A model generated the notes under the pieces. The model was not told the origin of the DNA, did no database searches, and worked only from the letters and a program-made list of their open reading frames with translations. From a virus, in IMG/VR virus record IMGVR_UViG_3300009151_000219, positions 1 to 33,723 of that record: a DNA stretch of 33,723 bases. One strand, given 5' to 3'. Shown in pieces: positions 4,909 through 20,850 of the stretch. The position numbers and the translations under genes were made by a program. How positions within the stretch are numbered: the first letter of the stretch is position 1; each line of letters opens with the position of its first letter.

Positions 4909-4916
4909 TATATTTG
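4909..4916 (+). promoter_or_regulatory. promoter -7 element of the tail operon
   Basis: TATATTTG begins on the base after the TAG stop (4906-4908) of the preceding gene and matches TAnnTTTG. No TTTG was found at the -33 position. Expected transcription start is about 4920-4923, a few bases before the pseudoknot. Confidence 0.65.
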
Positions 4917-4927
4917 CACATAAACTA

Positions 4928-4973
4928 AGGGTTCGGACACCCTGATAAACCGCTAAATTTTGAATTAAGCGGT
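4928..4973 (+). promoter_or_regulatory. pseudoknot leader with alternative start-codon hairpin (tape measure)
   Basis: Stem 1 is AGGGT (4928-4932) with ACCCT (4939-4943). The loop bases CGG (4934-4936) pair with CCG (4950-4952) across the linker GATAAA (4944-4949), giving an H-type pseudoknot. Alternatively ACCGCT (4949-4954) pairs perfectly with AGCGGT (4968-4973) around a 13-base loop, and that hairpin ends on the base before the ATG at 4974. CCG cannot be in both, so the leader can be drawn as a two-state switch. The same design recurs at 13953 and 19692. Confidence 0.7.
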
Positions 4974-7295
4974 ATGGTTTCAAATATAGTTTTCCAACTC
5001 ACGGGCAATGCATCAGGGATTGTTGCTGCATCGAATACGGCAAGTGATGCGATAAAAAAGACCAATTCAGAAGTATCCAAACTCGATTCCGCCCTATCTA
5101 AAGTCGGTGCAGCCGCAGCCGCATATTTTTCTGTTCAGAGTGTTATTGCATTCGGCAAGGAGATTGTCGCAGTCGAGGTAAAATTGACATCATTACGCAA
5201 CCGATTTGAGGGATTGACCGGTAGCGCAGAAGGCAGTATAAAAGAATTCGCACGCCTTCAAGCCTTGTCGGATAAGTTAGGGTTGTCGTTCACCGAAGTA
5301 GCCGATTCGTTCATGGATTTCGCCCAGTCGGCAAAATCTATGAACATCCCACTCAGCCAATCCCGTGCGATGTTCAACGACCTAACGAAAGCCATTGCAG
5401 GTGCGCATCTAAGCACTCAGCAACAAGGTCAGGCGATGTTGGCACTTACGCAGATGATGTCGAAAGGCAAGATACAGGCACAAGAATTGACTTTGCAGTT
5501 GGGGCAAGCACTCCCGGGAAGTATTGGCATCATGGCACGCAGCTTGGGTATAACTACTGCCGAACTAAATAAAATGATGGAGAAGGGCGAACTACTATCG
5601 TCCGTTGTGTTGCCTAAATTCGCTAAAGAACTTGAAAAAACCTTTGGCGGTCAAGCCGAATTAGCTGCGGAAAGTTTGAACGGTAGTATTAATAGGGCTA
5701 CGAATGCGTGGATAAGGATGTTTGATGTCATTTCAGAATCCGCACCGACAAAATCGACCATAAATGCGTGGACGGATTTATTAGATGTAATTACCAAAAC
5801 CATCCAATTAAACCAAGTCGGCACGAGTGGAGTAAGAGAGATTGATGCGGTCGCATCTGCACGAATAGCATCCGAGAAAGCCATCGCAAAAGTGTTGGAA
5901 GCTTTAGACAAAACTAAATTGACTGATGGTGAGAAAGGGCTTAAATTAAATCAAGCAGCCAACGAATCATTAGGCAGGCAGATTCAATTGGCTAAAGAAT
6001 TGAAAGATGCAGACCCGACAGGAAAGATGCCAACTTCGCATGATGAATATTATAAGGTCGAAGCGATTAAATTAAAAATAGCCAAAGAAAAAGAATATCA
6101 AGCCGTCTTATTAGATGCCTCCAAAGCAATATCGGACAAAGATGTTACCGCCCAAGCCGAGCGAAAAAGAATTGCCGAAGAATCTGCACAATTAACCGAT
6201 AAGCAAAAGAAGGCGTTAGAAGACTTTGCGAAAGCGTTGCGTAAACTACAAAACCAAGCCCAAATAGAATTGCATGGAGGGGCTGAAAGTGTGCAAGGAA
6301 TCAGATTAAAAGCGCAACAGGATATTGAATTGCTGAAAGAAACTAAAGAATATTTGGCATTACCCGAAAATGAGCAGTCTGCGTTGGTCGAGGCGATTCA
6401 GAGAGTGGCGCAAAAGCAGGTTGATTCAATCGTTAAGACTCGGTTAGATGCAAAAATAATACTGCAAAAATCCGCAGCGGATGCGCTCAAAGAGGGATGG
6501 GATAAGGGCAGAACGGTCGATACGAGTAAGATGCGCCCTGCTATGGATGCTACAGGGAAGACAATAGACGAGATGGATGCGGAAGCGCAACGCCTGAAGC
6601 AGATTGAATTGGATAAGAACAATTACCGGAACCAAATCGCACAGGATGGATTGCAGACAATAATAAATCTTGAACAATCCGCTGCGAACAAAAAGCAACA
6701 CATACTTGACCGGCAACTTGCGAAGGGATTAATATCCGAAGCGACCTATCAAAAAGAACTTACTAAAATAAAGCGCAAAGAAGCAATTGCGCAAAAAGCC
6801 ACAGCGATAGCATCTATTGCGATTAATACAGCAGTTGCAGTATCAACTAATCTTGGCGCACCTACATTCGGGGCACTCACACCACTCATTATCGGTCTTG
6901 GTGCGGCACAAGCTGCGGTCGTAGCATCGCAACCAATCGCATATGCGAAAGGTACAAAATACGTACCTCAACAAAATGGCGCAATCAGGGGCAAGGATTC
7001 GGTTCATGCCATATTGATGCCGGGCGAGCGTGTCGTGCCAACCGCTATAAATGAAACGCCCGGATACCGTAGCCTACTCGACACTATCCAAGACAAGAAA
7101 ATTTCACCTCGTACGGCACAATATCTGAACGATGTGGCTACGGGCAAGTCAACACGTTCCGCACCTGTGTCTTTCGAGATTGATTATGACGAAATGGGTA
7201 AGGCGGTGGCAAGGTACGCACCTAAAGTGAGTGTAACTGCATCGCAAGGAGTGGATATAAGTGTTACTGAAACTAATCGCAGGTCTCGTTTATGA
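4974..7295 (+). CDS. tape measure protein
   Basis: A 773-aa tail length-determining protein that fills the tail tube during assembly. Residues about 60-260 have the tape measure core pattern (KIQAQELTLQLGQALPGSI, then ITTAELNKMMEKGEL, then VVLPKFAKELEKTFGG). A long charged helical region follows (about 340-600), then a hydrophobic segment (about 608-655, IAINTAVAVSTNLGAP and LIIGLGAAQAAVVAS), then the tail-end motif GKDSVHAILMPGERVVPTA. It has its own promoter and a structured leader, so it can be expressed apart from the terminase operon. The stop overlaps the next ATG (ATGA). Confidence 0.9.
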   Translation: MVSNIVFQLTGNASGIVAASNTASDAIKKTNSEVSKLDSALSKVGAAAAAYFSVQSVIAFGKEIVAVEVKLTSLRNRFEGLTGSAEGSIKEFARLQALSDKLGLSFTEVADSFMDFAQSAKSMNIPLSQSRAMFNDLTKAIAGAHLSTQQQGQAMLALTQMMSKGKIQAQELTLQLGQALPGSIGIMARSLGITTAELNKMMEKGELLSSVVLPKFAKELEKTFGGQAELAAESLNGSINRATNAWIRMFDVISESAPTKSTINAWTDLLDVITKTIQLNQVGTSGVREIDAVASARIASEKAIAKVLEALDKTKLTDGEKGLKLNQAANESLGRQIQLAKELKDADPTGKMPTSHDEYYKVEAIKLKIAKEKEYQAVLLDASKAISDKDVTAQAERKRIAEESAQLTDKQKKALEDFAKALRKLQNQAQIELHGGAESVQGIRLKAQQDIELLKETKEYLALPENEQSALVEAIQRVAQKQVDSIVKTRLDAKIILQKSAADALKEGWDKGRTVDTSKMRPAMDATGKTIDEMDAEAQRLKQIELDKNNYRNQIAQDGLQTIINLEQSAANKKQHILDRQLAKGLISEATYQKELTKIKRKEAIAQKATAIASIAINTAVAVSTNLGAPTFGALTPLIIGLGAAQAAVVASQPIAYAKGTKYVPQQNGAIRGKDSVHAILMPGERVVPTAINETPGYRSLLDTIQDKKISPRTAQYLNDVATGKSTRSAPVSFEIDYDEMGKAVARYAPKVSVTASQGVDISVTETNRRSRL

Positions 7296-9181
7296 TTAGA
7301 TTTCGCTTCAATGGTACACCGATATTAGGCAGGATTTATGGCCTTGACAATATTTCATTAATCATTACTCCTGCGGACGATGCACGACTAAACCAAGTCG
7401 AGATTAGTACGGACTTGACATTCTACGATGATGGCTTTGACATAATTTATGCGCAATTAATCCAACCGCAGAACGGAATATACAATTACATAACGGTCGA
7501 GATATTTGATGATTGCTGCAACACATTTCTACCCCAAAAATATTATTTGCGTGGAGACAAAATAAATTGGTGCGAAGGTGAATGTTACTGCACGGCTATA
7601 CTAATATGTGATGACAATGACCGAGCCATAGCCAATTGCATATCGAATACAATAGTTTCGGATAACCGTAATAATTTCTTTACTAATGGACAATTCCCAT
7701 TAGTACCTTACTGCATCGAATTCAGACCGAGTGCGCTTCAAGACATTGTGATTGCGTTCGGGGCATTGCTTATGTTGGTGGTGGATATAATTACGGGAGT
7801 TGTTCTAATATTTATTGCAGTTGTTTCGGTCGCACTTACTGCCATTTGCGCAGTAGTTCAGGCGGTAGTGTTCTTAGTGAATGCGGTTGCCAACTTATAC
7901 ACTACGATTGCGAATTTTATAAATAATACTATTATACACTTCTTAAATCAAATTCCATTCGTAAACATTTCTCCATTAAACGTAAACGCCTTATCCAACG
8001 TAAATATTTCCTCTACATTTTGTCAAGGATTCTTAGTTCAGCCATTCCAATATACTCAGGACATACTCGACATACGTGCTAAGATTGCGCCACTAATTGA
8101 AGGATGCGGACGTAAACAACCAAGCCCATTGGTAAGAGATTATATTAATAATGTTTGCACCATATGTGGAGCAAGCGCATTCGTTTCATCTGTTCTAAAT
8201 AATCCTGCAAACGAATACTATCAGTTATTGTACTGGAACGCACCGAGCAAAAAAGGAGACCGCACTCCACCCAATTATATTTGGGATAACCGACCTACTA
8301 AAACAGGTGCGGAATTTCTTGATGATTTAGGATTGGCATTCAATTCAAAATGGTTTGTCAAGAACGGACAACTTTTATTCGAGAACGAATATTTTTGGCA
8401 AATTCAACCTGTATTCTTTGATACTACTGCTAATCCGGAAGCTATCTTAGAACGCCCATGCTACCGAATGAGTGATTCGCAATCATACGCAGGAATAAAA
8501 GTAGAATATCAAGTGGATGGCATTGATTGGGTAGGCAATGAGGCTCTTGCATGGTATAAGCATAATGTATCCTATAACCAATTGCACGGGTATCACCCGA
8601 CATGGAAGGGAATAAATACCAAAGAGCTCGCATTCGGGGCGGTACGATTCAGGAATGATTTATTCGAGTTGGATGTGCTTAGTTGGTGGGGGCAAGTAGG
8701 TATAATTAACACCTTATTCGGTGGGGGATTGAGCGCAAGTGGCGATTATCTACTTATCAATAATGGCACTTCATCTATGCCCAAATTATTGATATGGGAT
8801 AATGTCAATACCCCTTGGAATAATGCGAGGGTTAAAGATTACGGAACGAACAAAGGGCGCAATTATCCGATGCAGTTGCGTGAGAGTAGCCTCGATCATA
8901 GGTATAGCAGTACCGACCCTGTACCTGCCCATCCTGAACCACAAGACTTGACAGGTAATTTATGGGACTTCCACAAATTGGACGACCCGTTCATAAATCC
9001 ATACCAATTAATAGATTTCACCTTCACAGGACGATTAGATTGCACTCACTTAGGTACTGCCTCGGTCAGGCAATTAGTATTACTCAGACCGCACGAAAAT
9101 GGGCAAGTGATGCAGGGTAGGATTGACAGAATTGAGTTGAATCTGAGCACACGGCAAATGATTATTTCAGGCAAAGTTTAA
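7292..9181 (+). CDS. tail protein with a long internal hydrophobic block
   Basis: A 629-aa protein directly after the tape measure gene and coupled to it (ATGA), the position of distal tail or baseplate hub proteins. The N-terminal 130 residues are beta-rich with Cys pairs (DDCCNTF, CEGECYCTAILIC). Residues about 150-225 are almost uninterruptedly hydrophobic and could form two or three membrane spans (DIITGVVLIFIAVVSVAL is one part). The C-terminal 350 residues are soluble, with many Trp and Tyr. I do not recognise a named family. A virion protein with such a segment might insert into the host membrane during DNA entry, which is inference. Confidence 0.75.
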   Translation: MIRFRFNGTPILGRIYGLDNISLIITPADDARLNQVEISTDLTFYDDGFDIIYAQLIQPQNGIYNYITVEIFDDCCNTFLPQKYYLRGDKINWCEGECYCTAILICDDNDRAIANCISNTIVSDNRNNFFTNGQFPLVPYCIEFRPSALQDIVIAFGALLMLVVDIITGVVLIFIAVVSVALTAICAVVQAVVFLVNAVANLYTTIANFINNTIIHFLNQIPFVNISPLNVNALSNVNISSTFCQGFLVQPFQYTQDILDIRAKIAPLIEGCGRKQPSPLVRDYINNVCTICGASAFVSSVLNNPANEYYQLLYWNAPSKKGDRTPPNYIWDNRPTKTGAEFLDDLGLAFNSKWFVKNGQLLFENEYFWQIQPVFFDTTANPEAILERPCYRMSDSQSYAGIKVEYQVDGIDWVGNEALAWYKHNVSYNQLHGYHPTWKGINTKELAFGAVRFRNDLFELDVLSWWGQVGIINTLFGGGLSASGDYLLINNGTSSMPKLLIWDNVNTPWNNARVKDYGTNKGRNYPMQLRESSLDHRYSSTDPVPAHPEPQDLTGNLWDFHKLDDPFINPYQLIDFTFTGRLDCTHLGTASVRQLVLLRPHENGQVMQGRIDRIELNLSTRQMIISGKV

Positions 9182-9193
9182 AAAAGAATATAC

Positions 9194-12100
9194 ATGGCAA
9201 ATTGCACCGCAACATATACAGGATTATCGGGAGTGGTTAAATTACTCCCCGGTCAATCACAGACCTACACATTATCCGTAACCGTACCAATAGGATGCGC
9301 AGGATGTGCGAGTAATATCACTGCAATCAATGCGGTGAGTAGTAATTCTCGAATTGTACCGACCATTGTCACAACACCTATACTGCCAATTGTGGGTGGT
9401 GGTTATTGTGGAACGCCTTTTACTATTGTCGTTCAAATTGATGCCGATGCAAGTTCAGTAGCAGGTAGTGATTCGGGCATTATCACCATAACGTATGTCA
9501 ATGCGGGCGCAACCATAACGAGTATCATTCCATTCGCAGTAGTTCGCCCTGAGATGAGTGTAGATTTAGGGCAAGTATGTAGTGGCAGTTACTCATTCAA
9601 TTTATGCAACCCAACCTCGCAGAGATACGATGTGTATTTCGATGGATGTTCGTGCCCTGCGTGGACAGATTTTCCTGCGGGCAGTGCAACCGTTATAGAA
9701 TGTGATTGTGTTGCAATTACAATAAAATTTGTCGGCTCAGGCATAAAAAATATTCAGCAGAATTGCACCGTAACTATACTGACCGCTTTCGGATATAGCT
9801 ACCAACTGACCTTGTACTGGACAGAAATAGAATGCCCTATCACATGGTCATTTTGGGAGATTGCGGACATAAACGGACAACTACCGTACAATTCTGACAC
9901 GTATAATGCCGAGTGCAATGTAATGAATGTCGGGGCTATGGGTGAGCGCAAATACTTTTATGGCGCATGGAGTACATTGGTCAATCCTGTTGTATTTGGA
10001 GATGAAATTTATCTAAGCGCATGGATGTTCGCGCAACTTTCTCAATGGAACTTTAATAAAGGAACACAACCTACAAGTGGATGGAGGTGCAAGCTATGTG
10101 ATTCAGGTAATGGTATAGATGGCACATATACGATGGAATGGTATGGCGAGCAATTCAGTACAGAGAATAGCACATACACACCTCCAATGGTCTGCTATGT
10201 ATCTAATGGCGGGTTGGACATAGGATTTTATTACGAGTTCCATCTGATGGCAGATACGCAATTAGAACCGAGCAATTTCCCTGTTGAAAATCACGAATAC
10301 TTTCTACGTGGAGCATTATCGGGCAACGGTGCGAATACGAATGAGAATAGCCCTTATCGCAATGAAAAGTATATTTCATTCGCAGCGGTATTGAAACGAA
10401 TTACTGCAAACGAATGGCAAGATACATATCTGTCAATTCGGTGCAGATTCGATTATTACGATGCGAACGAGGTTATTCCGAATGTGGTAATGTCGAATGT
10501 GGTTTATACCTTCTCTATCCCATCTACTGCGGATGCGACCAATTGGCTTAGCCCTATTCGCACCACTAATTGCCATGTCGAATTCGATTGGATTACGTCC
10601 GACCCGACAGGAACATTACCCATAAGCACTTGGTTGTATATGTTCCGCAATGACACGAAGAATAATAGCGAGAATCCATTTGCAAATTATCAGTGTTCGT
10701 ATGCGGACATTGCCTCGAGTGTGCCGGGCGGAATGATAATTGCAATTATTACGCCTCCAACCTATTCGGGTTCGGGCAACAGATTTTATTTTGATGTGGA
10801 ACTTGACACTTGCGCATTCCCTGACATCCCGACCGAGCAAATCCCTGACCAATTCAGATTTATTTTAGTCAATTATACTTATACCGATTTTGCGGTACGG
10901 ACAAGTTTAAGTGCGGTATTAGAGTGCATAAACTATGACGATACTGCGATTGTCTTTAATCAATTAGACTTTACATTGGGCGCAGTGGATATGGAATATC
11001 CGAGTACGGTTAATTCTATTCAGTTCCCTGTTCATGCGGATATGCAGACCAATATGGGTTGGATGCCTGCACTGGATAATGCACAAGTTATAGCCAAAAC
11101 AAATGGAGTACAGCGAACAGCGTTAGAGGCATTGACAGGAATAGAATTGCAGGTATTCAGACAAGACGATTTGAATGATTTAGAATTAATAAACACGTCC
11201 TATTTCGCCCCTGCATTGGCACACGACTGCGGTGCATTCAGCGATATTTCAGCACAAACAGGACAAGCAGGGTTAATCAATCTAAGCAGTGGCGGTGCGG
11301 TTCAGTTAGCATTCCCTATGACATTACTCGATAATACTTTCCGAGTAACCTCCCGTGCAAATTTATTCCAAGCACCTAAAAGTAACCCGAATAATTGGGG
11401 CGTATATTCAGGGGCGGATTTGGATTGTGTGGCTAACCGTGTGCCTTGTCAGAGTATTATTATTAATAGGTTGGCGGATTTAGTGCCTGTGAACGCTTCA
11501 GATTTATACCAAATTATTTGGGTATCTGCCACGAATGAAATATGGACTTGTGATGCGTTGAATGGATTAATACTTCGATTCGATGCGAATACTTTAACGC
11601 AATTGGCTGATATTGTTTTGCCAAGTGGAGCAAGTAATTTAGCATTATACTACTGTCAAAATGCTAATTGTGTTTTTGTGGGGGATAATAGTCATGCTGC
11701 CGTTTACAAGATAGATATTTATGCGCTAACTTATTCGGCATCCATTGGGTTCACAGGGTTTGGAAGTTTCGCATTTGTTGAGGTTGGGAATAGTATATAT
11801 AATGCAGATAACAATTTTATCCAAGAAATTGATATTTCCTCGAACACAGAAATAAATACACCAGTACCAACACCGGGATTATACGTTATAGGAATGATTT
11901 ATCTACCTGCGCCAATCAATGAGATATGGTATGTAGATGGAATTAATTCGGCTATAATACGAGTTAACCCAACATCAAATACTATTATTGGTAGTGTATC
12001 CGTGTCTAATCCACCAACTGCATTAACCACTGATGGCACGTATGTTTATGCAAGTTGTATAACTAATATTGACACCGTAGAGATTGCGACCTTATCGGTT

Positions 12101-12817
12101 GTAAATTCTCAAACACTTGGAATTTCATTGCAGGGTATATCTGCCAACTTTGGCATACTTTATTGTGTTGACTACGATTCGGATGCGTTACTAATTATTG
12201 ACCCCTCAACCCTTACATTAATTGCAAGTTATACCACCGATGTAAAGCCTGAGAATTTAGTCGTTGCAAGTGGATTAATTTTCACACAGAACAAGGGCAC
12301 AGAAGATTTATCCGTATTCAAACTTACTCCCTGTGGCGGTCTCCCTCGCTATTCTTGGGCGGGCGAAAATATTTTATTGAAATGGCAACTTGCATTTAAT
12401 TTTCTTGGGAATGTTGAAACGTACAATTACACTCAGCAACTTGCTCGAATTAATCCTACCGTACTTAATCCTGTGCCGTATGTGGATACCGTTACAATTC
12501 AAGAAAAGCAATTAGACGGCTCATACGTAACCATAAGCAAGCCGTGCGTAAATTCATCCCAATTAAAGATTAACGTAGCATATAACGCACCGTATGCCAC
12601 CTTATCGGTCGGAATTGAATTACAACCCGTAAGAGGTATGAAGTATTTTAGCACCTCCGTTCCGCAAGGTCTAACACCGATGCCAATTATACCTGCTGAG
12701 AATCCGTATGTGTCGAATATTATTACGACCGCAACGGATGTAACCTTCGACTTGGATTTCCCTGCATTGCCATTCAGTAATGACATGGAGTTAATAATTC
12801 ACACCATTATCAAATAA
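9194..12817 (+). CDS. large tail fibre or receptor-binding protein with beta-propeller-like region
   Basis: The largest protein here, 1207 aa. The N-terminal 250 residues are Ser/Thr/Cys-rich beta-domains (YTGLSGVVKLLPGQSQTYTL and similar), like immunoglobulin-type adhesion modules. Residues about 770-1050 contain repeated units such as NEIWTCDALNGLILRFDANT, NEIWYVDGINSAIIRVNPTS and DALLIIDPSTLTLIASYT, the pattern of YVTN/NHL-type beta-propellers. A beta-rich C-terminal domain follows. Size, position after the tail-tip gene and this make-up suggest host attachment. No enzyme active site was recognised. It starts 12 bp after the previous gene and likely shares its transcript. Confidence 0.72.
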   Translation: MANCTATYTGLSGVVKLLPGQSQTYTLSVTVPIGCAGCASNITAINAVSSNSRIVPTIVTTPILPIVGGGYCGTPFTIVVQIDADASSVAGSDSGIITITYVNAGATITSIIPFAVVRPEMSVDLGQVCSGSYSFNLCNPTSQRYDVYFDGCSCPAWTDFPAGSATVIECDCVAITIKFVGSGIKNIQQNCTVTILTAFGYSYQLTLYWTEIECPITWSFWEIADINGQLPYNSDTYNAECNVMNVGAMGERKYFYGAWSTLVNPVVFGDEIYLSAWMFAQLSQWNFNKGTQPTSGWRCKLCDSGNGIDGTYTMEWYGEQFSTENSTYTPPMVCYVSNGGLDIGFYYEFHLMADTQLEPSNFPVENHEYFLRGALSGNGANTNENSPYRNEKYISFAAVLKRITANEWQDTYLSIRCRFDYYDANEVIPNVVMSNVVYTFSIPSTADATNWLSPIRTTNCHVEFDWITSDPTGTLPISTWLYMFRNDTKNNSENPFANYQCSYADIASSVPGGMIIAIITPPTYSGSGNRFYFDVELDTCAFPDIPTEQIPDQFRFILVNYTYTDFAVRTSLSAVLECINYDDTAIVFNQLDFTLGAVDMEYPSTVNSIQFPVHADMQTNMGWMPALDNAQVIAKTNGVQRTALEALTGIELQVFRQDDLNDLELINTSYFAPALAHDCGAFSDISAQTGQAGLINLSSGGAVQLAFPMTLLDNTFRVTSRANLFQAPKSNPNNWGVYSGADLDCVANRVPCQSIIINRLADLVPVNASDLYQIIWVSATNEIWTCDALNGLILRFDANTLTQLADIVLPSGASNLALYYCQNANCVFVGDNSHAAVYKIDIYALTYSASIGFTGFGSFAFVEVGNSIYNADNNFIQEIDISSNTEINTPVPTPGLYVIGMIYLPAPINEIWYVDGINSAIIRVNPTSNTIIGSVSVSNPPTALTTDGTYVYASCITNIDTVEIATLSVVNSQTLGISLQGISANFGILYCVDYDSDALLIIDPSTLTLIASYTTDVKPENLVVASGLIFTQNKGTEDLSVFKLTPCGGLPRYSWAGENILLKWQLAFNFLGNVETYNYTQQLARINPTVLNPVPYVDTVTIQEKQLDGSYVTISKPCVNSSQLKINVAYNAPYATLSVGIELQPVRGMKYFSTSVPQGLTPMPIIPAENPYVSNIITTATDVTFDLDFPALPFSNDMELIIHTIIK

Positions 12818-12820
12818 AAT

Positions 12821-13915
12821 ATGCCCGTCATAAGAAAAAATCTCGACCTAAATGTTATCACCTTGCCCTCGACAGGTTCGGGCGCAATTGATGTGCCATC
12901 AGGGATACCCATAGACATATATTGCAACCCGTGCGCACCCGTAACTAACAATCCCGGCATTAATTGTCTTATCACCGACACATGGAATTGCAATCTATGC
13001 GGGAATGACACTCCCTACTTGCAACCGTATAAGGTTGGAGATTGCTTGAATTTTCAGTTTCAATTTCAAGACACTTTGAATTCTGCCAATCCAATATCGT
13101 ACGCACAATTCCAAGCCTTACCATTTCCGAAGATACCTTATGGATGGTATGATTCTTCATTGGACAATACAAATTACACTATCCAAATTCGGATGTATGA
13201 TGCCTGTACCGATGCGCAGGTGGACACGGAAACGCTCGAAGCTATGGTACAACAGGCTTGTGTCTACTTGTTCCAAGATTCCAAAGCCTCGTATATCGGC
13301 TATCCTTCTCAAGCATGGTACAGATGGGGGCAAAACATAAATATATGCCTTACCGACCAAGCCCCTGCGACATTCTATTTTAAATTTACGGTAACGCATA
13401 GTAATTCCTCTCAGACCGATTATTTTTCTGACACCTACGCATTGGCTAATTGCGGATTCCCTACGATGGTAATTGAAGGCATATACGACACGACCGATTG
13501 TAGAGGCTTTACGTATCACGACCCGACCGTTATTCCGAATACACGTAGTACAATCCCACCTTATTCGCTCGCCTCAAATTGTCTGCGCACAGGTCGTTCA
13601 GGGAATTACCGCAACGCATTCAGGGTATATGGCACGAGTGAATATACGGGGGTGAATATTGAAAAAACAATCCCGAAAAGATTCTGCGCATCGGTCAGCA
13701 CAACCTCATACCCTATCTATCGTGTCCGTACCAAACCTGTTCCGCCCTTTGTTGCGGATAGAATGAAATATGCGATGGAGGGCAAATATTCACTTATTGA
13801 TTCAGTACAAGTCAATAATATGGTGGGCATTCAGAAGTCGAACGAGACCGGTCGGATGTGGATTATGGATTTCGAGGTGCAAGGATGCCAGTGTGTTCAA
13901 GACCAAAATTGTTAA
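12821..13915 (+). CDS. cysteine-rich tail protein
   Basis: A 364-aa protein, not recognised, with about 16 Cys spread along its length in pairs such as CNPC, CNLC and CQC at the C-terminus. Secondary structure looks beta-rich throughout, and there is no membrane segment or signal peptide. It begins 3 bp after the large fibre gene and is the last gene of the tail operon, followed at once by the promoter at 13917. A tail-tip or fibre-associated structural role is inferred from position. The Cys content may mean disulfides or metal sites in the virion. Confidence 0.65.
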   Translation: MPVIRKNLDLNVITLPSTGSGAIDVPSGIPIDIYCNPCAPVTNNPGINCLITDTWNCNLCGNDTPYLQPYKVGDCLNFQFQFQDTLNSANPISYAQFQALPFPKIPYGWYDSSLDNTNYTIQIRMYDACTDAQVDTETLEAMVQQACVYLFQDSKASYIGYPSQAWYRWGQNINICLTDQAPATFYFKFTVTHSNSSQTDYFSDTYALANCGFPTMVIEGIYDTTDCRGFTYHDPTVIPNTRSTIPPYSLASNCLRTGRSGNYRNAFRVYGTSEYTGVNIEKTIPKRFCASVSTTSYPIYRVRTKPVPPFVADRMKYAMEGKYSLIDSVQVNNMVGIQKSNETGRMWIMDFEVQGCQCVQDQNC

Positions 13916-13916
13916 G

Positions 13917-13947
13917 TTTGATTTATGAATATTTTTGTATACTTTTG
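13917..13947 (+). promoter_or_regulatory. strong Bacteroidota-type promoter of the tail-tube candidate
   Basis: TTTG (13917-13920), 19 bp, then TACTTTTG (13940-13947) is the best match to the TTTG/TAnnTTTG consensus in the window. Expected start is about 13951-13953, which is where pseudoknot stem 1 begins. Confidence 0.8.
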
Positions 13948-13952
13948 TTGCA

Positions 13953-14013
13953 AGGGATGCGCCCGCACCCTGAGAAACGGGCTTAGAACAATTTTACTCA
14001 ATTCTAAAACCGT
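13953..14013 (+). promoter_or_regulatory. pseudoknot leader with alternative hairpin (tail-tube candidate)
   Basis: Stem 1 is AGGG (13953-13956) with CCCT (13968-13971). Loop bases GCCCG (13961-13965) pair with CGGGC (13978-13982) across linker GAGAAA (13972-13977). In the alternative state ACGG (13977-13980) pairs with CCGT (14010-14013), enclosing TTAGAA/TTCTAA (13983-13988 with 14002-14007) around a 13-base loop, five bases before the ATG at 14019. The stem 2 sequence differs from the leader at 4928 but still pairs, and linker and topology are kept. Confidence 0.72.
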
Positions 14014-14018
14014 ATAAT

Positions 14019-14576
14019 ATGCCACAAACCTGCGCTGGATGTACCGTAACCGTACAGACACTTCCCCCAACCTGTGTAATCACAAAAACTTTAGCCGGTA
14101 TCAACGCAATGGCGTTCGTGTCCTGCTCGAACACCACTATCGCTGCCGCGCCTGACAATATTACCGTTTGGCAGGCAGCAGTTGCAGCCAACGAGGCTCG
14201 TGTAGTAAAATTATTACTTGGCGAGAATCCTGACCCGAATGACAACATGAAGAGATTATCTTCCTGTTTTGCCGAAGAAATTGTAGGTCGTACCAACATG
14301 ATTAATATTGAGGATTACGACTTGTCATTTACTGCCGGAACGCCAAATACCTATGACAAATGGATATTTTGGAACTGGGTAATGGCAAATGCAAGTTCAT
14401 TAAATGTATACTGGACAGATTGCAACGGTCGTAGTTACTACGCAGCCAATCCAACCGTAACCGTGAACGAGGTTAAGCCGAATAATTCAACAGAATTATC
14501 CTATTTCAAAGTGAAGGTTGCATACCTCGGTATCCCGATGGTAGTCCCCTTTGACTTGAACCTTAACGAAGTTTAA
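14019..14576 (+). CDS. putative major tail tube protein
   Basis: A 185-aa protein with its own strong promoter and structured leader, which suggests a high-copy virion protein. The sequence is beta-rich with a few Cys (CAGCTVTV, CFAEEIVG) and ends in alternating hydrophobic strands (YFKVKVAYLGIPMVVPFDL). Size fits siphovirus tail tube subunits (about 150-250 aa), and the other high-copy protein, the capsid protein at 19786, has the same kind of leader. The assignment is from context and shape, not from a recognised motif. It could be another abundant structural protein. Confidence 0.5.
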   Translation: MPQTCAGCTVTVQTLPPTCVITKTLAGINAMAFVSCSNTTIAAAPDNITVWQAAVAANEARVVKLLLGENPDPNDNMKRLSSCFAEEIVGRTNMINIEDYDLSFTAGTPNTYDKWIFWNWVMANASSLNVYWTDCNGRSYYAANPTVTVNEVKPNNSTELSYFKVKVAYLGIPMVVPFDLNLNEV

Positions 14577-14583
14577 TAAAATT

Positions 14584-16449
14584 ATGGGCATTCAACAAAG
14601 CGGTGGGCTAATCAACCCACCGCCTGTTATGTGGCCGTTCAATCCGAACGCACGACCAACCCATGCCGCACGGTGGGGCTCGGCTTTCTATGAAATGATT
14701 ACGCATACGTGGCGACACAATGCACGTAAACTACTATTTCAACATAGACCGACCGAAAGCCCTGAGACGTTAGACTATCGCACGCAGAATGAAGAAGGCA
14801 TTACGACCGGACCAATCACACGAGCGACCAATGAAATATTCTCAGCCATTTTAGGCGGTAAATATTCGTATGAGGTGGATGAATCCATTGCGGATTACAT
14901 CAAAGAGCCTCGATTCGGACTAACAACAGCCAACCGTTACGGATACAACTTTTGGCAATACTTGCGCCATGTTGTATGTCCAAGAATGCGGGACGACCCG
15001 AATGGGTATTTTGTTTGGCTGCCCGAAAGATATGGAGATGTAACGAAGAAGATTGAACCTGATGCGTACCTTGTGTTCTCAATATCTATTATAGAATTGA
15101 GCGAAGAACGAATTACCTTCCTTCGCCCTGAACAATTATATACGGTAGATGCACGTGGCGTTCCGCTTAAAATATTCGTGTCAATTGATAAACATTATTA
15201 TTGGTATCACCAACAACTGACCGACGAGAATGATAATGCCATAGACAAATATTCTTCGCTGCCTTATTATTATCACGGGCTCGGATTTATTCCAATCGTG
15301 TCGCTCGGTGGCGTGTATTCAAGTGCCGCCTATGCGTGGGACGACCGCACTGCCAAATCGCTTCAGGGCGAGCCGACCGCATGGATGCCTTTCAATATGT
15401 CAGGTGGTTCAGCAGGTAATAATGTAATGGGATTTCCGCTTATTGTGAATTACTTTGAAAGTTTTTTTCGTGGGTATATTCCGATGGCAAATGATTTTAT
15501 CAAATTCTATTCCGATTACAAAATATCTTGGGCACGTACCGCACACCCTGTAATTGTCGAGAAGGCTATTGATTGCCGAGTATGTCAAGGGCGTGGAACG
15601 AGATGGGATGCAGAAAATAACAGAGACATAAATTGCGGACATTGTCATGGCACGGGCAGTGAGATACCGAGCAAATCACCTGCTGGCACATACTTGGTTA
15701 AAGTTGCCGACACAGAGAAGATTCCGACAGGCAATAATCCTGCGCAGATGGAAGACCCATTCAGCTATATTGTACCGCCACATGAAGGATTAAGATTCCA
15801 ATGGGATGCGTGCAAAGAGATGCTGATTCAGGCTGAGAAAGAAATATATCAATTCTATACCGACAAGGTGCAGAGTGGTGATGCTAAGGAGATAGACCGA
15901 GAAGGGAAGTACAATATGATTCTCACCCTGAACGACCATATCTTCGACCACAACGCAATCAATATGCTATGGATATTGACCTTGCTACGGAATATCAATA
16001 ATCCAACCGAGCCTGAAATTATCAAGCCGACCGATTTTAAGGTGAAAGATGAACTGGATTTGATTGAAGAGCGCAAGGCAATGGTCGAGGCGAATGTACC
16101 GCTATCAATGCGATTGAAGGTCGATGTGGATTTGGCAAAACGCAGATTTTCGGGTGATGAAAAGCCGGGAACGATTATCATTCTACTTTCTCTTTGGGAT
16201 ACGCTGTATGACAAATCACAGGACGATTACGTAAACATATTAGGCGGTATGCCACAAACAGAGGCGGACGATTTGAAGCGCCGGCACTTGTACGCTGACC
16301 GTGTTATCGGGCAAATACTAAATGAGCAGGGAGAGGAATGGCTTGATAAAGACACAGCCATTCAATTGTCCGATATGGATGCGAAATATGCGACATTAAT
16401 TTCTACAATTCCAAAAGCAATAGCCAATCCTTTATTACCTAATGGCTGA
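14584..16449 (+). CDS. portal protein with DnaJ-type zinc knuckle
   Basis: A 621-aa protein of typical portal size, placed directly before the MuF-like minor head gene. The body has mixed alpha/beta sequence with Tyr/Trp-rich stretches and a long helical C-terminal third (about 410-600). Residues 331-358 hold CRVCQGRG and CGHCHGTG, two CxxCxGxG motifs 20 residues apart (C331, C334, C351, C354), the arrangement of a DnaJ cysteine-rich zinc site. Zinc binding is expected. The zinc knuckle may stabilise a surface loop or contact other head proteins. The portal call rests on size, layout and neighbours; the zinc motif is seen directly. The stop overlaps the next gene by 8 bp. Confidence 0.75.
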   Translation: MGIQQSGGLINPPPVMWPFNPNARPTHAARWGSAFYEMITHTWRHNARKLLFQHRPTESPETLDYRTQNEEGITTGPITRATNEIFSAILGGKYSYEVDESIADYIKEPRFGLTTANRYGYNFWQYLRHVVCPRMRDDPNGYFVWLPERYGDVTKKIEPDAYLVFSISIIELSEERITFLRPEQLYTVDARGVPLKIFVSIDKHYYWYHQQLTDENDNAIDKYSSLPYYYHGLGFIPIVSLGGVYSSAAYAWDDRTAKSLQGEPTAWMPFNMSGGSAGNNVMGFPLIVNYFESFFRGYIPMANDFIKFYSDYKISWARTAHPVIVEKAIDCRVCQGRGTRWDAENNRDINCGHCHGTGSEIPSKSPAGTYLVKVADTEKIPTGNNPAQMEDPFSYIVPPHEGLRFQWDACKEMLIQAEKEIYQFYTDKVQSGDAKEIDREGKYNMILTLNDHIFDHNAINMLWILTLLRNINNPTEPEIIKPTDFKVKDELDLIEERKAMVEANVPLSMRLKVDVDLAKRRFSGDEKPGTIIILLSLWDTLYDKSQDDYVNILGGMPQTEADDLKRRHLYADRVIGQILNEQGEEWLDKDTAIQLSDMDAKYATLISTIPKAIANPLLPNG

Positions 16450-17281
16450 AATAGCAGACATACAGACAGAGCGCATAATAAAGGCGAGTAATAAGGCTAC
16501 GGAGGCGCTGGTTAAAGAATTGACCGCCTATATGGACAAACTACCGACCAACGGTGGAAAGTTCAGTAAAGGCAAGGATTTACAGAGATTAATTAACGGA
16601 CTTGGAAACGAGATTGATTCGATTGTGCGCAAGTCAGGGTACCCCGAAACGGTCGTATCTGTGGCACGTAGTTTAGACGATATTCAAGGCGAGGCAGGGG
16701 CATTATTAAAGAAGTATAATAAGGGCATTCCGTGGGATACAGACATTAAGGCACTCGGTATTGATAAGATGAAGGAAGAGGCGAGTAACACCTTAATCGA
16801 AAGACTTACCGATACCGAATACACATCGAATATTCGAGACCCATTAAGACAGGCATTGTACCAAAATATATCAGGTGGGGCAAGTGTAACTGAAACACGT
16901 GAATTTCTGCGTAGAATGTTATTAGCAGGTGATGCGGACAAGTACGCACCTATGGCGAGATGGTCTGGGCAATTGACATTAGATACTTTACTTGGATATG
17001 ATGGGCAAATTTATGACCGATTCACGACCACATACGATGTTAATACGTACGTTTATATCGGTTCTCTGTTGACCGATTCGAGACCGCAATGTGTTCGATG
17101 GATAAACAAATTCAACGGTAAAATTCCTTCCGATAAATTAGCGAGTGAGATAACTTGGGCGCAAACGAATGGTTCAGGGATGAAGAAATATACCACCGTA
17201 GCCACATTCTGTGCAGACAGGGGCGGTTATCATTGCAGACATAAGTGTATTCCAGTTTTTACAGATTATGAGTTCAATTGA
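16442..17281 (+). CDS. MuF-like minor head protein (SPP1 gp7 family)
   Basis: A 279-aa head morphogenesis protein. The C-terminal part has the family signature GSLLTDSRPQCVRWINKFNG (about 201-220), followed near 256-270 by DRGGYHCRHKCIP, matching the D-S-R...C and R-G-G-x-x-C-R-H pattern of SPP1 gp7/Mu F-type proteins. These are minor capsid proteins near the portal that help assembly or are ejected with DNA. The N-terminal 150 residues are helical. It starts inside the portal gene (8-bp overlap), as usual for this pair. Confidence 0.85.
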   Translation: MAEIADIQTERIIKASNKATEALVKELTAYMDKLPTNGGKFSKGKDLQRLINGLGNEIDSIVRKSGYPETVVSVARSLDDIQGEAGALLKKYNKGIPWDTDIKALGIDKMKEEASNTLIERLTDTEYTSNIRDPLRQALYQNISGGASVTETREFLRRMLLAGDADKYAPMARWSGQLTLDTLLGYDGQIYDRFTTTYDVNTYVYIGSLLTDSRPQCVRWINKFNGKIPSDKLASEITWAQTNGSGMKKYTTVATFCADRGGYHCRHKCIPVFTDYEFN

Positions 17282-17510
17282 ATTAGTATTTATTGACCGC
17301 ATGAAGGCGTGGGCTGTACCCGTAATTTGTGCGGTTGTGGCATTCACGGGCAATGGCATTATTAATTCCGTAAACCGCCTGTATGATGGGATTGAAAAAT
17401 TATCCGACAAGGTCAGCAAGGTGGATGAGCGACAGATACGCACCGAAGAACAGGTTAAGGCGTTCAGTAAGGAATTGGAAGAGGTTAAAGAACATATAGC
17501 ACAATGGTAA
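17268..17510 (+). CDS. holin-like membrane protein with coiled coil
   Basis: An 80-aa protein starting at ATG 17268, 14 bp inside the end of the minor head gene. It has one membrane span (about 12-33, WAVPVICAVVAFTG) followed by a charged helix (36-78) predicted to form a coiled coil. It precedes a DUF5675 protein, often found near lysis genes, so a holin or lysis-accessory role is plausible. Several phage membrane proteins share this simple layout, so the name is tentative. The stop overlaps the next start in TAATG (17508-17512). Confidence 0.6.
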   Translation: MSSIELVFIDRMKAWAVPVICAVVAFTGNGIINSVNRLYDGIEKLSDKVSKVDERQIRTEEQVKAFSKELEEVKEHIAQW

Positions 17511-17920
17511 TGGAACTCTATTTAAAACGGTATGTATTCGGCTCGAAATATACCATAGGCGATTTCTATCAGATGGGACACGCCCCAATGTGTCAGATAC
17601 TCGAAGACCACCTGCCGACACCTTACGTAAAAGTGCCTAAAATCACCTGCATACCATACGGAAGGTATAGGGTTGTATGGGACTTCTCGAACCGCTTCCA
17701 AAAGAACACCCTGCACTTATTGGATGTGCCACAATTCGAGGGCGTTCGCATTCATGCAGGCAATTCAGATGCAGATACGGAAGGTTGCCCAATACCGGGC
17801 AAGTACGATGCCACATACCCCGGCATTGTATCGCACTCTCGTGATACGGTTAAAGCCATAGAGGCGTTGATTTGCCCGCTATTGAGTACGACAGAGGTCT
17901 ATATCAATATTATTTCGTAA
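17510..17920 (+). CDS. DUF5675 family protein, likely lysis-associated
   Basis: A 136-aa protein with the DUF5675 pattern: an N-terminal LKRYVFGSKYTIG, then KVPKITCIPYGRYRVV (41-56), then GVRIHAGNSDADTEGC (78-93). The IHxGN plus DTxGC pair recalls His and Cys catalytic motifs of L,D-transpeptidase-like enzymes, so activity on peptidoglycan is possible but not proven. It follows a holin-like gene. ATG 17510 forms a TAATG overlap, as elsewhere in this genome; ATG 17504 would add two residues. Confidence 0.78.
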   Translation: MELYLKRYVFGSKYTIGDFYQMGHAPMCQILEDHLPTPYVKVPKITCIPYGRYRVVWDFSNRFQKNTLHLLDVPQFEGVRIHAGNSDADTEGCPIPGKYDATYPGIVSHSRDTVKAIEALICPLLSTTEVYINIIS

Positions 17921-17938
17921 ATTCACAACAAAAATAAA

Positions 17939-18514
17939 ATGCAACTAAAAAACTCGTACCCATTTATTATTGTCGGCATTATTGTCGCAATAATCGGATT
18001 CGCCTCGACACAATTCAAGGCTTGTAGTCCCATTTCCGCATCTCCTGCACCTATGTCCATACTTGACACCGTTACGGTATCAGAGATTACAGGAACAGGC
18101 AATGCTATCGTGGCTTTATTCGGCACGAAAAAAGGCGCAGGTTACACTTATCAGACCTATCAACAAGGGCAGGTAGGCAATGCTTATCTTGTGTACGATA
18201 CCGTTGGCGTGGATTCTATTCACTTGCAATTGGTTTCTACCGATGACAAGATTCGGTCATGGGATTTATCGATATTCTATTTCCGCGTGTCAGGCATACC
18301 GCACCAAATCGCAGGCAGTTCACAAAATACAGTTAATTATGCTAATTGGAAATGGTTCACACAGCCAAGTAGATTGCCATTACTTAACGTTACCACTGCT
18401 AAACGTGATTCATTATATCAATGGTCTTTAGCACCAAAGGGAACGATGATATTTAATACAACCATTGATTCTGCGCAGATTAAAGCGAGCGGAACAATTT
18501 GGAGAACTAATTAA
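17939..18514 (+). CDS. N-terminally anchored protein of unknown function
   Basis: A 191-aa protein with a hydrophobic N-terminus (residues 8-24, PFIIVGIIVAIIGFAS) followed by FKAC, a poor lipobox, then a Ser/Thr-rich region and a beta-rich domain containing several Trp. It is probably exported and anchored in the inner membrane, or a lipoprotein if FKAC is processed. Its place after the holin-like and DUF5675 genes suggests a lysis, spanin-like or exclusion role. No motif supports one choice over the others. Confidence 0.6.
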   Translation: MQLKNSYPFIIVGIIVAIIGFASTQFKACSPISASPAPMSILDTVTVSEITGTGNAIVALFGTKKGAGYTYQTYQQGQVGNAYLVYDTVGVDSIHLQLVSTDDKIRSWDLSIFYFRVSGIPHQIAGSSQNTVNYANWKWFTQPSRLPLLNVTTAKRDSLYQWSLAPKGTMIFNTTIDSAQIKASGTIWRTN

Positions 18515-18539
18515 TAATTTTACTTAAACTTAAATCACA

Positions 18540-18758
18540 ATGGCACTAATTAAACTAAGAAACCTCTCTGACCCATCTCGCACGGTGGTAGTCAATGAGC
18601 GTGTGTACGCAATTGAGCAGAAAAGAAAAAACAAAGACGGTAAAAGCATAAGCCAATTCAAAGATTGGGAGCAAGTACCGTTGGAGGATGAAGCTGAGCC
18701 TGCATCCACTGAGCCTGCATCCACTGACAAGCCTGCTAAGAAGACTACTAAGAAATAA
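18540..18758 (+). CDS. small head-region protein with acidic then basic tail
   Basis: A 72-aa protein. The first 50 residues form a small folded-looking domain (MALIKLRNLSDPSRTVVVNE), followed by an acidic, Ala/Pro/Ser/Thr-rich linker containing EPAST twice and a Lys-rich end (KPAKKTTKK). The EPAST repeat is encoded by a 15-bp tandem duplication. It sits two bases before the scaffold gene. It may be a head decoration or scaffold accessory protein, from context only. Confidence 0.6.
   Translation: MALIKLRNLSDPSRTVVVNERVYAIEQKRKNKDGKSISQFKDWEQVPLEDEAEPASTEPASTDKPAKKTTKK
18696..18725 (+). repeat. 15-bp tandem duplication
   Basis: GAGCCTGCATCCACT occurs twice in tandem (18696-18710 and 18711-18725), encoding the repeated EPAST in the small head-region protein. 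It keeps the reading frame. Confidence 0.95.
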
Positions 18759-18760
18759 GT

Positions 18761-19612
18761 ATGTCCAAGTATAAAACTATGGTCGAAGCCTTACTGAAAG
18801 GCACGACCAAAGGGGCTGAGGTGCTAACCGCACTCGAGTCTCTCGATGACAAGGCGGAAGTGCCTGCAAACCTTATCGACATGGCTTCTGATACACAATC
18901 AGAATACCATTTCAAAAATGACAAAGAGCGGTTAAAATCGGTTCGGTCTGAGAACAAAGGACGTGTGTATGACGAAGCAATTTCCGCATTCAAAAAGGCT
19001 TCGGGCATTTCAGGTGAAGACTTGAAAGATTTGAACACTTACGAGGAAATTGTCGCAAAAGGCATTGAAGTTCTCAAAGCTAAATCGGGACTGACCTCGG
19101 ATGAAAGAGTAAAAGAAATCGAAAGACTTCAAGGGATGTTGGTAGACAAGGACACGGAGATTAAAACCTTGCGTGAAGTTGAATTACCTAAGATTACTCT
19201 TGAAGCCAACGAAAAATTACTCAACAAAGAAAGGCGCTCGTTGTTCGCTTCGGAAATTTCGGGAAAGAAAATTACCGGTTCAGAATTTCAAATTAAAGCC
19301 ACCCAAGAGAGTATGTGGAATGCTCTGAATGCTGAGGCTTCGATTGAAATTGATGACAACGGTAAGCACACTTTGAAAGACAAGAATGGTGCAGTCATCA
19401 ATAAGCCCGGTACGAAAGAGCCCGCAACGGTTGGTGATTGGATTACGAATTATGGCACGACGAATGGTGTGTTTTCGCAATCGAATGAGCCCCCGACAAA
19501 GGACATCAAGTTTCCATTGCAAGGTGGCAGTGGCGGTGGTGATAAACGCACAGAGCGCCAAAAAGCGATTGATGCGGATGTGGCTGCGAAAGAGGCATAC
19601 GCAACAAAATAA
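18761..19612 (+). CDS. capsid scaffold protein
   Basis: A 283-aa protein directly before the major capsid gene. It is highly charged and helical, with a likely coiled coil at about 110-160 (ERVKEIERLQGMLVDKDTEI), few aromatic residues, and a C-terminal region with a Gly-rich linker (GGSGGGDKRTERQK) and a basic end. This is the composition and position of scaffolding proteins, which template procapsid assembly and leave or are cleaved. There is no protease motif. A terminator follows, which separates it from the capsid gene. Confidence 0.75.
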   Translation: MSKYKTMVEALLKGTTKGAEVLTALESLDDKAEVPANLIDMASDTQSEYHFKNDKERLKSVRSENKGRVYDEAISAFKKASGISGEDLKDLNTYEEIVAKGIEVLKAKSGLTSDERVKEIERLQGMLVDKDTEIKTLREVELPKITLEANEKLLNKERRSLFASEISGKKITGSEFQIKATQESMWNALNAEASIEIDDNGKHTLKDKNGAVINKPGTKEPATVGDWITNYGTTNGVFSQSNEPPTKDIKFPLQGGSGGGDKRTERQKAIDADVAAKEAYATK

Positions 19613-19639
19613 TTAAATCTTTCTTTCTGTTTTAATATG

Positions 19640-19674
19640 TCCCGTGCGAGTAATTTGCACGGGATTTTTTTTTT
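19640..19674 (+). terminator. intrinsic terminator after scaffold gene
   Basis: TCCCGTGC (19640-19647) and GCACGGGA (19657-19664) form a perfect 8-bp stem with a 9-base loop, followed by ten T (19665-19674). It would separate head-gene transcripts from the capsid transcript. Confidence 0.92.
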
Positions 19675-19685
19675 ATATATCTTTG
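19654..19685 (+). promoter_or_regulatory. capsid gene promoter nested in the terminator
   Basis: TTTG (19654-19657) spans the loop and 3' arm of the terminator hairpin; 20 bp later is TATCTTTG (19678-19685), matching TAnnTTTG. Transcription should start at about 19689-19692, where the first pseudoknot begins. Confidence 0.75.
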
Positions 19686-19691
19686 TTCCCA

Positions 19692-19768
19692 ATGTCACCC
19701 GACATGAAAATGGGTTAAGGCGCAAGACCTGACAACTTGCAACCAAAAACTTTAATGTTACTTAACCC
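19692..19768 (+). promoter_or_regulatory. tandem pseudoknot leader of the capsid gene
   Basis: First pseudoknot: stem ATGT(C)/(G)ACAT (19692-19696 with 19701-19705), loop ACCC (19697-19700) pairing with GGGT (19712-19715) across GAAAAT. Second: AGG/CCT (19718-19720 with 19728-19730), loop GCAAG (19722-19726) pairing with CTTGC (19736-19740) across GACAA. In an alternative state GGGTTAAG (19712-19719) pairs over 8 bp with CTTAACCC (19761-19768), 17 bases before the ATG. That removes stem 2 of the first pseudoknot and stem 1 of the second. Confidence 0.7.
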
Positions 19769-19785
19769 TTAATTCTACACATACA

Positions 19786-20850
19786 ATGGTAGTTTCTCCT
19801 CAATTTTCAGCGATTGCCCCAGCGATTAGCACGCTGTTAAAAGCAATCACCTATAATGACCCCGCAATGAAGAGGTCTCAATTAGGTACGATTTTAATGT
19901 TAAAAAATGCGATGAACACCGCAGGTTCTCAAGCAGCTATTCCTGTTCCAATGAACGGCCAGTTGCGTGATGTACAAGTAAACTACATCAAGAGATATAC
20001 AGAGGCAGAAGCAGGCGATACATTTGCACAATGCTTTGACCCAAATGCGGTAAATACTACCGACAATTTTGCATTCACCGTAGCCGCTGCGGATTTCTTG
20101 TATGCTGACATTACTTTCAGCTATACAGAAGACCAAATTCGTCAGTTGATTGAAGACCAAAATTCATTCATCGCATACGATATGTTGGCTCAGTACGATG
20201 CGCTATCTCGTAAGATGAACCAAGCCATCATAAATTACATATTGGCGAATTTCGGTAACTATTCTGACGGTACTAATTCAGGTTCTGCACCACTTGCCTT
20301 AGGCTTGATGGGTGCATCTAACAACATTTTGGGGGCAAACTATGTTGGCGAAACCAAATTGAAGGCTGAATTAATTCGTATGCGCCAAGCAGGAACTAAA
20401 GCTCTTGCAGTTGGCATGGGTACTGAGCAAGGTATCTTCACTTACACCGATGTGCGTAAGGTGGGTACGGCTAACTTAACAGGTATTGATTTGGCTTCAC
20501 CGCTTAGTTTCGCTTTATTTGCCGATGACCAATTCGCACTAAGTGCGGGCGACCCTGATTACTTTGCAACAATCGAGCCGGGAGCGATTCAATTGCTTTC
20601 ACAAATTCAATATCCTGCAGGAACTGTCTACAATAAAGTTGTGGATAATGTATTCATGAAGGATACCGTGGTTGACCCATACACGATGGTTACTTATGAC
20701 CGTTATATGGAGTACGACCCACGTTGCGGGGTGTATAAAGGTAAATTATCATCCTTCTACAAACCGCAGGCGATGTTCCCTGACAACTTCAAAGCAACTG
20801 ATTACTTGAACGGAGTGACCTACATCACTCAGTGGGATGCTAAACCATAA
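19786..20850 (+). CDS. major capsid protein
   Basis: A 354-aa protein after the scaffold gene, with its own promoter and a long structured leader, both fitting the most abundant virion protein. Sequence is evenly mixed alpha/beta, with no membrane segment; the N-terminal part has long helices (ISTLLKAITYNDPAMKRSQL) and the C-terminal part beta-strands ending in YLNGVTYITQWDAKP. I recognise position and size rather than a sharp motif. An HK97-like fold is the usual expectation. The next gene starts 5 bp after the stop. Confidence 0.75.
   Translation: MVVSPQFSAIAPAISTLLKAITYNDPAMKRSQLGTILMLKNAMNTAGSQAAIPVPMNGQLRDVQVNYIKRYTEAEAGDTFAQCFDPNAVNTTDNFAFTVAAADFLYADITFSYTEDQIRQLIEDQNSFIAYDMLAQYDALSRKMNQAIINYILANFGNYSDGTNSGSAPLALGLMGASNNILGANYVGETKLKAELIRMRQAGTKALAVGMGTEQGIFTYTDVRKVGTANLTGIDLASPLSFALFADDQFALSAGDPDYFATIEPGAIQLLSQIQYPAGTVYNKVVDNVFMKDTVVDPYTMVTYDRYMEYDPRCGVYKGKLSSFYKPQAMFPDNFKATDYLNGVTYITQWDAKP

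Follow-up and report, generated by a model that had tools for sequence, protein, structure and literature searches.

Do the late messages of this phage begin with a shared, selected RNA structure and, if so, what would it do? The window, that is, the whole 33,723-nt stretch of DNA analyzed here, is an IMG/VR virus record of a tailed phage with Bacteroidota-type promoters and carries terminase, tape measure and DnaB-like helicase genes. To our knowledge, the way in which Bacteroidota phages raise and time the expression of their late genes has been little studied. Shine-Dalgarno signals are largely missing from the messages of Bacteroidota (PMC7366714). A leader RNA common to late operons, with compensatory evolution in relatives, would offer a concrete and testable handle on late expression. 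A preliminary description of the window had proposed four H-type pseudoknots in three leaders, each next to a promoter, and had assigned the downstream genes to the tape measure protein (TMP), a tail-tube candidate and the major capsid protein (MCP).

The TAnnTTTG sequence is the Bacteroidota -7 element, a motif centred at -7 (PMC7366714). Since the box is centred at that position, the predicted +1 lies approximately 3-4 nt after TTTG; therefore, the first hairpin of each leader would be located at or very near the 5′ end of its transcript. On the plus strand, we localized these boxes by direct reading at 4909-4916 for the TMP transcript (TATATTTG; TATCTTTG is also found in its relatives, close and distant), 13940-13947 for the tube-candidate transcript (TACTTTTG) and 19678-19685 for the MCP-candidate transcript (TATCTTTG). 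The first hairpin begins 5 to 11 nt past the box in the window, and 3-11 nt past TTTG when the relatives are included, so the proposed placement right after the promoters was borne out, with the second MCP-candidate knot following the first. An intrinsic terminator, TCCCGTGC...GCACGGGA with a T run (19640-19673, plus strand), was read just 5′ of the MCP-candidate promoter. Regarding the genes served, also on the plus strand, the identity of the tape measure gene (4974-7295) is supported by PHROG and Pfam TMP_3. The names tail tube (14019-14576; relatives 35-36% identical) and major capsid (19786-20850; same-place relatives 35-37% identical) were not substantiated: neither product gave a family match or a confident match to a single-stranded DNA-binding protein (SSB), and their AlphaFold models, with a pLDDT of 30-33, were too poor to use. 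We refer to both as candidates.

Direct reading of the three leaders recovered all four proposed complementarities between a loop and the sequence downstream of it. In the TMP leader (4928-4952, plus strand; 100% identical in the closest relative, L002), hairpin 1 is formed by AGGGT (4928-4932) and ACCCT (4939-4943) around the loop TCGGAC, and in the candidate stem 2 the loop bases CGG (4934-4936) face CCG (4950-4952) across the linker GATAAA. In the tube-candidate leader (13953-13982, plus strand), AGGG (13953-13956) pairs with CCCT (13968-13971), or, in an alternative drawing, AGGGaTGC pairs with GCACCCT around the loop GCCC, while stem 2 joins GCCCG (13961-13965) to CGGGC (13978-13982) with the linker GAGAAA. 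The MCP-candidate leader holds two candidate knots in tandem on the plus strand. The first (19692-19715), found by direct reading and tested against shuffles, consists of ATGTC (19692-19696) with GACAT (19701-19705) as hairpin 1 and ACCC (19697-19700) with GGGT (19712-19715) as stem 2, with the linker GAAAAT; the second (19718-19740), also read directly, consists of AGG (19718-19720) with CCT (19728-19730) as stem 1 and GCAAG (19722-19726) with CTTGC (19736-19740) as stem 2, with the linker GACAA.

Scoring the first 62 nt past TTTG by stacking energies, with the knot geometry kept as proposed, we found that the best knot of the TMP, tube-candidate and MCP-candidate leaders was matched by 10, 1 and 10 of 1000 dinucleotide shuffles, respectively, i.e., each beats 99-99.9% of the shuffles; both tandem knots of the MCP-candidate leader were reached together in none of 300. 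Knots with stacking energies of -13 kcal/mol or lower number 177 on both strands of the window, approximately one per 380 nt per strand. Nevertheless, four non-overlapping knots are seen in 228 nt of leader against 0.6 expected (P=0.003). Additionally, four of the five strong GAnAA-linked knots of the window lie in the leaders, which make up 0.34% of the sequence, a clustering with P about 6e-10 that is post hoc, as the linker was first noticed in these very sites.

The preliminary description missed a second partner for the 3′ strand of stem 2: in all three window leaders, this strand can also pair with downstream sequence, forming hairpins that are more stable by nearest-neighbour energies. 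In the TMP leader, the minimum free energy (MFE) fold contains a hairpin 2, ACCGCT/AGCGGT (4949-4973, plus strand), which abuts the ATG at 4974 with a 0-nt gap and has CCG in common with stem 2; its CCGC/GCGG pairs are kept in L002 with a changed loop. In the tube-candidate leader, both direct reading and the MFE fold give a hairpin 2 with ACGG/CCGT enclosing TTAGAA/TTCTAA (13977-14013, plus strand), 5 nt before the ATG at 14019. In the MCP-candidate leader, GGGTTAAG (19712-19719) can pair with CTTAACCC (19761-19768; 19712-19768 overall, plus strand; P=0.018 against shuffles), 17 nt before the MCP-candidate start, a pairing incompatible both with stem 2 of the first knot and with stem 1 of the second. 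RNAfold, under its nearest-neighbour model, picks the downstream hairpins over the knots in the window leaders, and the nested folds lie approximately 3-10 kcal/mol below the knots, a rough estimate that uses a crude knot penalty. As base-pairing potential, the double hairpin and the pseudoknot are mutually exclusive in these leaders. Judged from the pairing possibilities, each leader would either switch between folds or consist of two plain hairpins whose loop pairing is incidental.

Masking of the start codon was considered as the purpose of such a switch. Complementarity between leader and start codon (GCCAUA/UAUGGC, AAAUGAC/GUCAUUU) gave P values of 0.02-0.98 against shuffles and was not significant in most leaders; sequestration of the start codon by leader sequence is thus at best suggestive. 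Because, in addition, the distance between hairpin 2 and the ATG varies, from 0, 5 and 17 nt in the three window leaders to about 27 nt or more in the relatives, a start-codon switch is not demonstrated.

Single-protein scans with the MCP candidate, the tube candidate and the TMP gave nothing, or only L002 and two distant TMPs. A search with a two-sequence terminase alignment yielded 25 distant relatives with terminases 48-54% identical and the same gene order, only 3 of which reach the MCP-candidate gene. L002, with a terminase 83% and a TMP 70% identical, is the only close relative. Its TMP leader keeps TAAGGGTTCGGACACCCTGATAAACCGC letter for letter, while the flanks, the promoter spacing and the hairpin 2 loop differ; the identical core of 28-31 nt comprises the stem, loop, linker and stem-2 strand. 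Since the loop and linker are invariant, this conservation argues for more than a plain hairpin; it is what a knot or a bound factor would lead one to expect, and a plain hairpin less so. The linker GAnAA, described as kept, is so in the window and L002 and is absent in the distant relatives. The stem 2 strands do differ in sequence yet remain complementary, as proposed, but a comparison among the four window copies does not amount to covariation between homologues, and no stem 2 pair of the window varies in L002.

In the distant relatives that reach these three genes, a TAnnTTTG box is followed 3-5 nt later by a 5′-terminal hairpin at each of them, in leaders that cannot be aligned with those of the window. 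The TMP leader of the relatives reads 5′-TATCTTTG-CCC-TGACC-GCCC(C)-GGTCA-TTA-GGC-(ATCAC or GAATC)-GCC-ATA-3′, that of L287 reads 5′-TATATTTG-CATA-TCGCT-ACCCA-AGCGA-ATA-GGC-TCTGA-GCC-ATA-3′, and the tube leader reads 5′-TATCTTTG-TACAA-CCTCT-CCC-AGAGG-GTA-GGC-AGTTT-GCC-ATA-3′. The MCP-candidate leader reads 5′-TATCTTTG-TTCC-GTTCGAT-GCCA-ATCGAAC-TTAGG-TGGC ... GGGTT-ATCCCCTCG-AACCC-ATAAATGA-CGAGGGAT-3′. A covariance model, R2, built from the TMP leader of the relatives also picked up the tube leader of those phages (E=0.01 over 243 kb), which indicates that the leaders of one phage resemble each other; the same search did not recover the leaders of the window.

Three of the five pairs of the relatives' TMP hairpin 1 have both partners changed when L287 is compared with the other relatives, a result reached by 0-2 of 500 shuffles. 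In the MCP-candidate leader, for which three sequences are available, hairpin 1 has two pairs changed on both sides, and one of the sequences has a C-A mismatch. Over columns 22-92 of that alignment, only columns 53 and 78 vary, and these two columns are partners within stem 2 of the second knot, as A-U in one sequence and C-G in two. This leader also contains two tandem candidate knots, the best with P about 0.003 and both together in none of 300 shuffles; the score of the whole structure is reached by 31 of 500 shuffles, with few sequences contributing. For the 5′-most hairpin of the relatives, the match between loop and downstream sequence lacked significance in the TMP leader (GCC/GGC, P=0.16), in that of L287 (0.75) and in the tube leader (0.45), and was borderline in the MCP-candidate leader (0.06). 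The loop pairs number just 3 and 2 in the TMP and tube leaders, respectively, which is at chance level, and it is sterically doubtful that the 3-nt linker of these leaders could span 5-7 bp. Pooled with the window sites, the match was reached in 0 of 20000 trials, for a set partly chosen for its complementarity.

A selected RNA structure with covariation in related phages, as had been anticipated, therefore holds in part. Hairpin 1 covaries, as does one stem 2 pair of the MCP-candidate leader, and the core is retained in L002, but stem 2 of the window does not covary, and the relatives' TMP and tube leaders reproduce it no better than chance. At the level of sequence comparison, hairpin 1, its promoter-proximal place, its association with the same three genes in the relatives and the tandem MCP-candidate knots of the relatives are established. 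The folding of the leader itself seems to be selected, judging by the folds that relatives keep at the same three places despite different sequences. The specific pseudoknots of the window are likely, though not proven.

How widely such leaders are distributed was addressed by several searches. In scans of 2.9 million viral contigs for the pattern AAGGG..ACCCTGAnAAA, the matches listed beyond the window and L002 were coding or due to chance. The leaders of five Bacteroidota phages and approximately 20 Bacteroidota prophage loci contained no GAnAA knots after TAnnTTTG; thus, the feature is not general to Bacteroidota phages. The MCP candidate had one 22% match among 299 genomes of one order, at a gene without such a leader. 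In line with the statement that no named RNA family fits, Rfam 15 gave no family at the gathering threshold and, below it, up to E of 10, only chance matches or none. A literature search of limited scope found no papers describing such leaders. RNAs kept in position and pairing, and not in sequence, may escape sequence-based RNA family searches.

Among known systems, the T4-type gene 32 mRNA pseudoknot is a phage translational operator (PMC3014915). The likeness is that, within the 5′ leader of a phage message, an H-type pseudoknot precedes the region where ribosomes enter; in the window this is a candidate knot backed by complementarity and shuffles, with a stem 2 that does not covary. The gene 32 knot serves an ssDNA-binding protein, which binds it, and is accompanied by an A+U-rich tract, UUAA(A), that covers the ribosome site; in contrast, the candidate knots of the window lie at the very 5′ end and serve three late operons that encode the TMP and two proteins lacking an SSB match. 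The operator of E. coli rpsO, the gene of ribosomal protein S15, has two alternative folds: a pair of hairpins, and a pseudoknot in which the loop of the first hairpin joins a strand of the second. The same alternative between a double hairpin and a loop-made pseudoknot is available, as pairing potential, to the leaders described here. Nevertheless, in rpsO the ribosome site is part of the knot, where the ribosome is trapped with the help of S15 (entrapment is mentioned in PMC4137082), whereas none of the three window leaders has its ATG within the knot. The PreQ1-I riboswitch, an Rfam family, likewise forms a very small H-type knot, whose third loop is rich in A. The loop sequences of the window leaders differ from it, their genes are unrelated to queuosine and the leaders gave no match to the PreQ1 model of Rfam at E up to 10. 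Finally, the 5′-terminal mRNA-stabilizing stem-loops of ompA and papA, treated in works that PMC3997798 cites, also place a hairpin at the extreme 5′ end; the window leaders add loop complementarity and a second, competing hairpin, and a stabilizing role is proposed for them by analogy. Taken as analogies, the leaders would work most like the rpsO operator, the gene 32 knot and the 5′-terminal stabilizing stem-loops, although they lack the defining features of the first two.

The reading that we favor, with a probability of approximately 0.5, is that of a 5′-terminal leader able to switch folds and aiding the expression of late structural genes. Each of the three late transcripts would carry a cis-acting leader, beginning no more than a few bases from the predicted +1 and composed of a 5′-terminal hairpin and a second element capable of pairing in two mutually exclusive ways, i.e., with the loop of hairpin 1, as an H-type pseudoknot, or with downstream sequence, as a hairpin. 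The pseudoknot could form first, during transcription, and the downstream hairpin nearer the start codon would then be favored in the complete leader. The most likely task of this element would be to raise and coordinate late structural gene expression, the structured 5′ end protecting the mRNA from 5′-end-dependent decay and the choice of fold tuning access to the start codon. Because the 5′ end, and not the distance to the start codon, is the most constant property across lineages, a role in decay protection is favored over pure start-codon masking, and because the pairings are mutually exclusive and the loop and linker are frozen in L002, an additional switch is favored. We infer that the window leaders form knots, that they switch and that they influence decay or translation.

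The strongest competitor, which we nevertheless regard as rather unlikely, is that these are plain 5′-terminal stem-loops similar to those of ompA and papA, in which the mRNA end owes its protection solely to hairpin 1, hairpin 2 is an ordinary structure that happens to lie nearby and the loop matches downstream sequence by coincidence. It would account for the greater stability of the nested folds, for hairpin 1 being the only covarying element in the TMP leader, for the scarce loop pairing in the relatives' TMP and tube leaders and for the start of most hairpins 3-6 nt past TTTG. The invariant loop and linker in L002, the excess of knots in the 228 nt of leader and the compensatory stem 2 pair of the relatives' MCP-candidate leader are what it leaves unexplained. 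Appreciably less probable is a site for a trans-acting protein or ligand, of the gene 32, rpsO or small-riboswitch kind, through which a phage or host factor would repress or activate all late transcripts together. The recurrence of one type of element at three late operons, the A-rich linkers, the mutually exclusive folds and the strong conservation of unpaired bases in L002 are consistent with such a regulator, but across lineages there is no shared sequence signature except C-rich loops followed by GG in most copies, nor did any Rfam riboswitch match even at E up to 10. A DNA operator in the form of an inverted repeat was ruled out, the stem sequences being wholly different between the leaders. 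Chance pseudoknots picked by eye are a very improbable explanation, for although such energies arise about once per 380 nt per strand, the clustering by position and linker, the shuffle tests, the L002 conservation and the covarying hairpins at the same places in relatives all speak against it.

Returning to the switchable leader, we tentatively suggest a new class of 5′-terminal leader RNAs jointly controlling the late operons of a group of uncultured Bacteroidota phages, in which only position and pairing would be kept between lineages while the sequence evolves fast, and whose members would also have a second new RNA at their early genes, namely a kissing-loop terminator.

In the relatives, this second RNA was observed at L269:171-263 (+), L279:741-833 (+), L281:4550-4641 (+), L272:183-274 (-) and L277:8399-8491 (-). 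A TAnnTTTG or TACATTTG-like box upstream of early genes is followed by a hairpin P1, a small second hairpin (P2) and an intrinsic terminator. The loops of P1 and of the terminator are exact complements, giving a kissing pair of 7-8 bp. A model built from the relatives, R1, found the window copy at 405-526 on the minus strand (E=0.0064; fold z=-4.2), with a promoter box at 537-530, the elements P0, P1, P2 and terminator, and a location between the RusA gene and a small gene. Its P1 loop GGACAAG (495-489) and terminator loop CTTGTCC (433-427) are exact complements. R1 has stem P1 shifted by one column; all copies were still recovered through the terminator and the sequence, and the pair counts use the right columns. 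Six distinct kissing pairs were identified: CTGGCAGA/TCTGCCAG, GGTGGAAG/CTTCCACC, GGTCAGAG/CTCTGACC, GTGGCAG/CTGCCAC, GGTGAGAG/CTCTCACC and the GGACAAG/CTTGTCC of the window. Across four versions, eight pairs are changed on both sides, four of them in the kissing helix (0 of 500 shuffles), and the copies had no Rfam match. This RNA is better supported than any single leader knot, and it shows that promoter-proximal loop pairing is habitual in these phages. The element may serve as an attenuator or an sRNA; by analogy with P4-type immunity RNAs, one could speculate that it acts as a specificity determinant. Within the window copy, CGATTTC of hairpin P0 matches GAAATCG, its complement in the 5′ half of the terminator stem, and the two may form an antiterminator.

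Other sites were noted in these genomes. In L291:322-420 (+), and at the same place in L292, L293, L294, L295 and L296, TATCTTTG follows the homologue of g12821, and a strong terminator, GATGCAGGAGG...CCTCCTGCAT with a T run, lies within approximately 60 nt of it, before the next gene; this site is a candidate for another attenuator or sRNA. At about 4565-4580 (plus strand) of the window, a run of nine T falls in a stretch identical in L002, where the ORFs 4184-4699 and 4504-4908 overlap in different frames. Situated just upstream of the tape measure gene, it is likely the programmed frameshift of a G/GT-type tail assembly chaperone. In L264-L285, 0.5-1.3 kb of variable sequence, longer than that of the window, separates the g4184 homologue from the TMP gene just 5′ of the TMP promoter, and this stretch is possibly an accessory gene slot.
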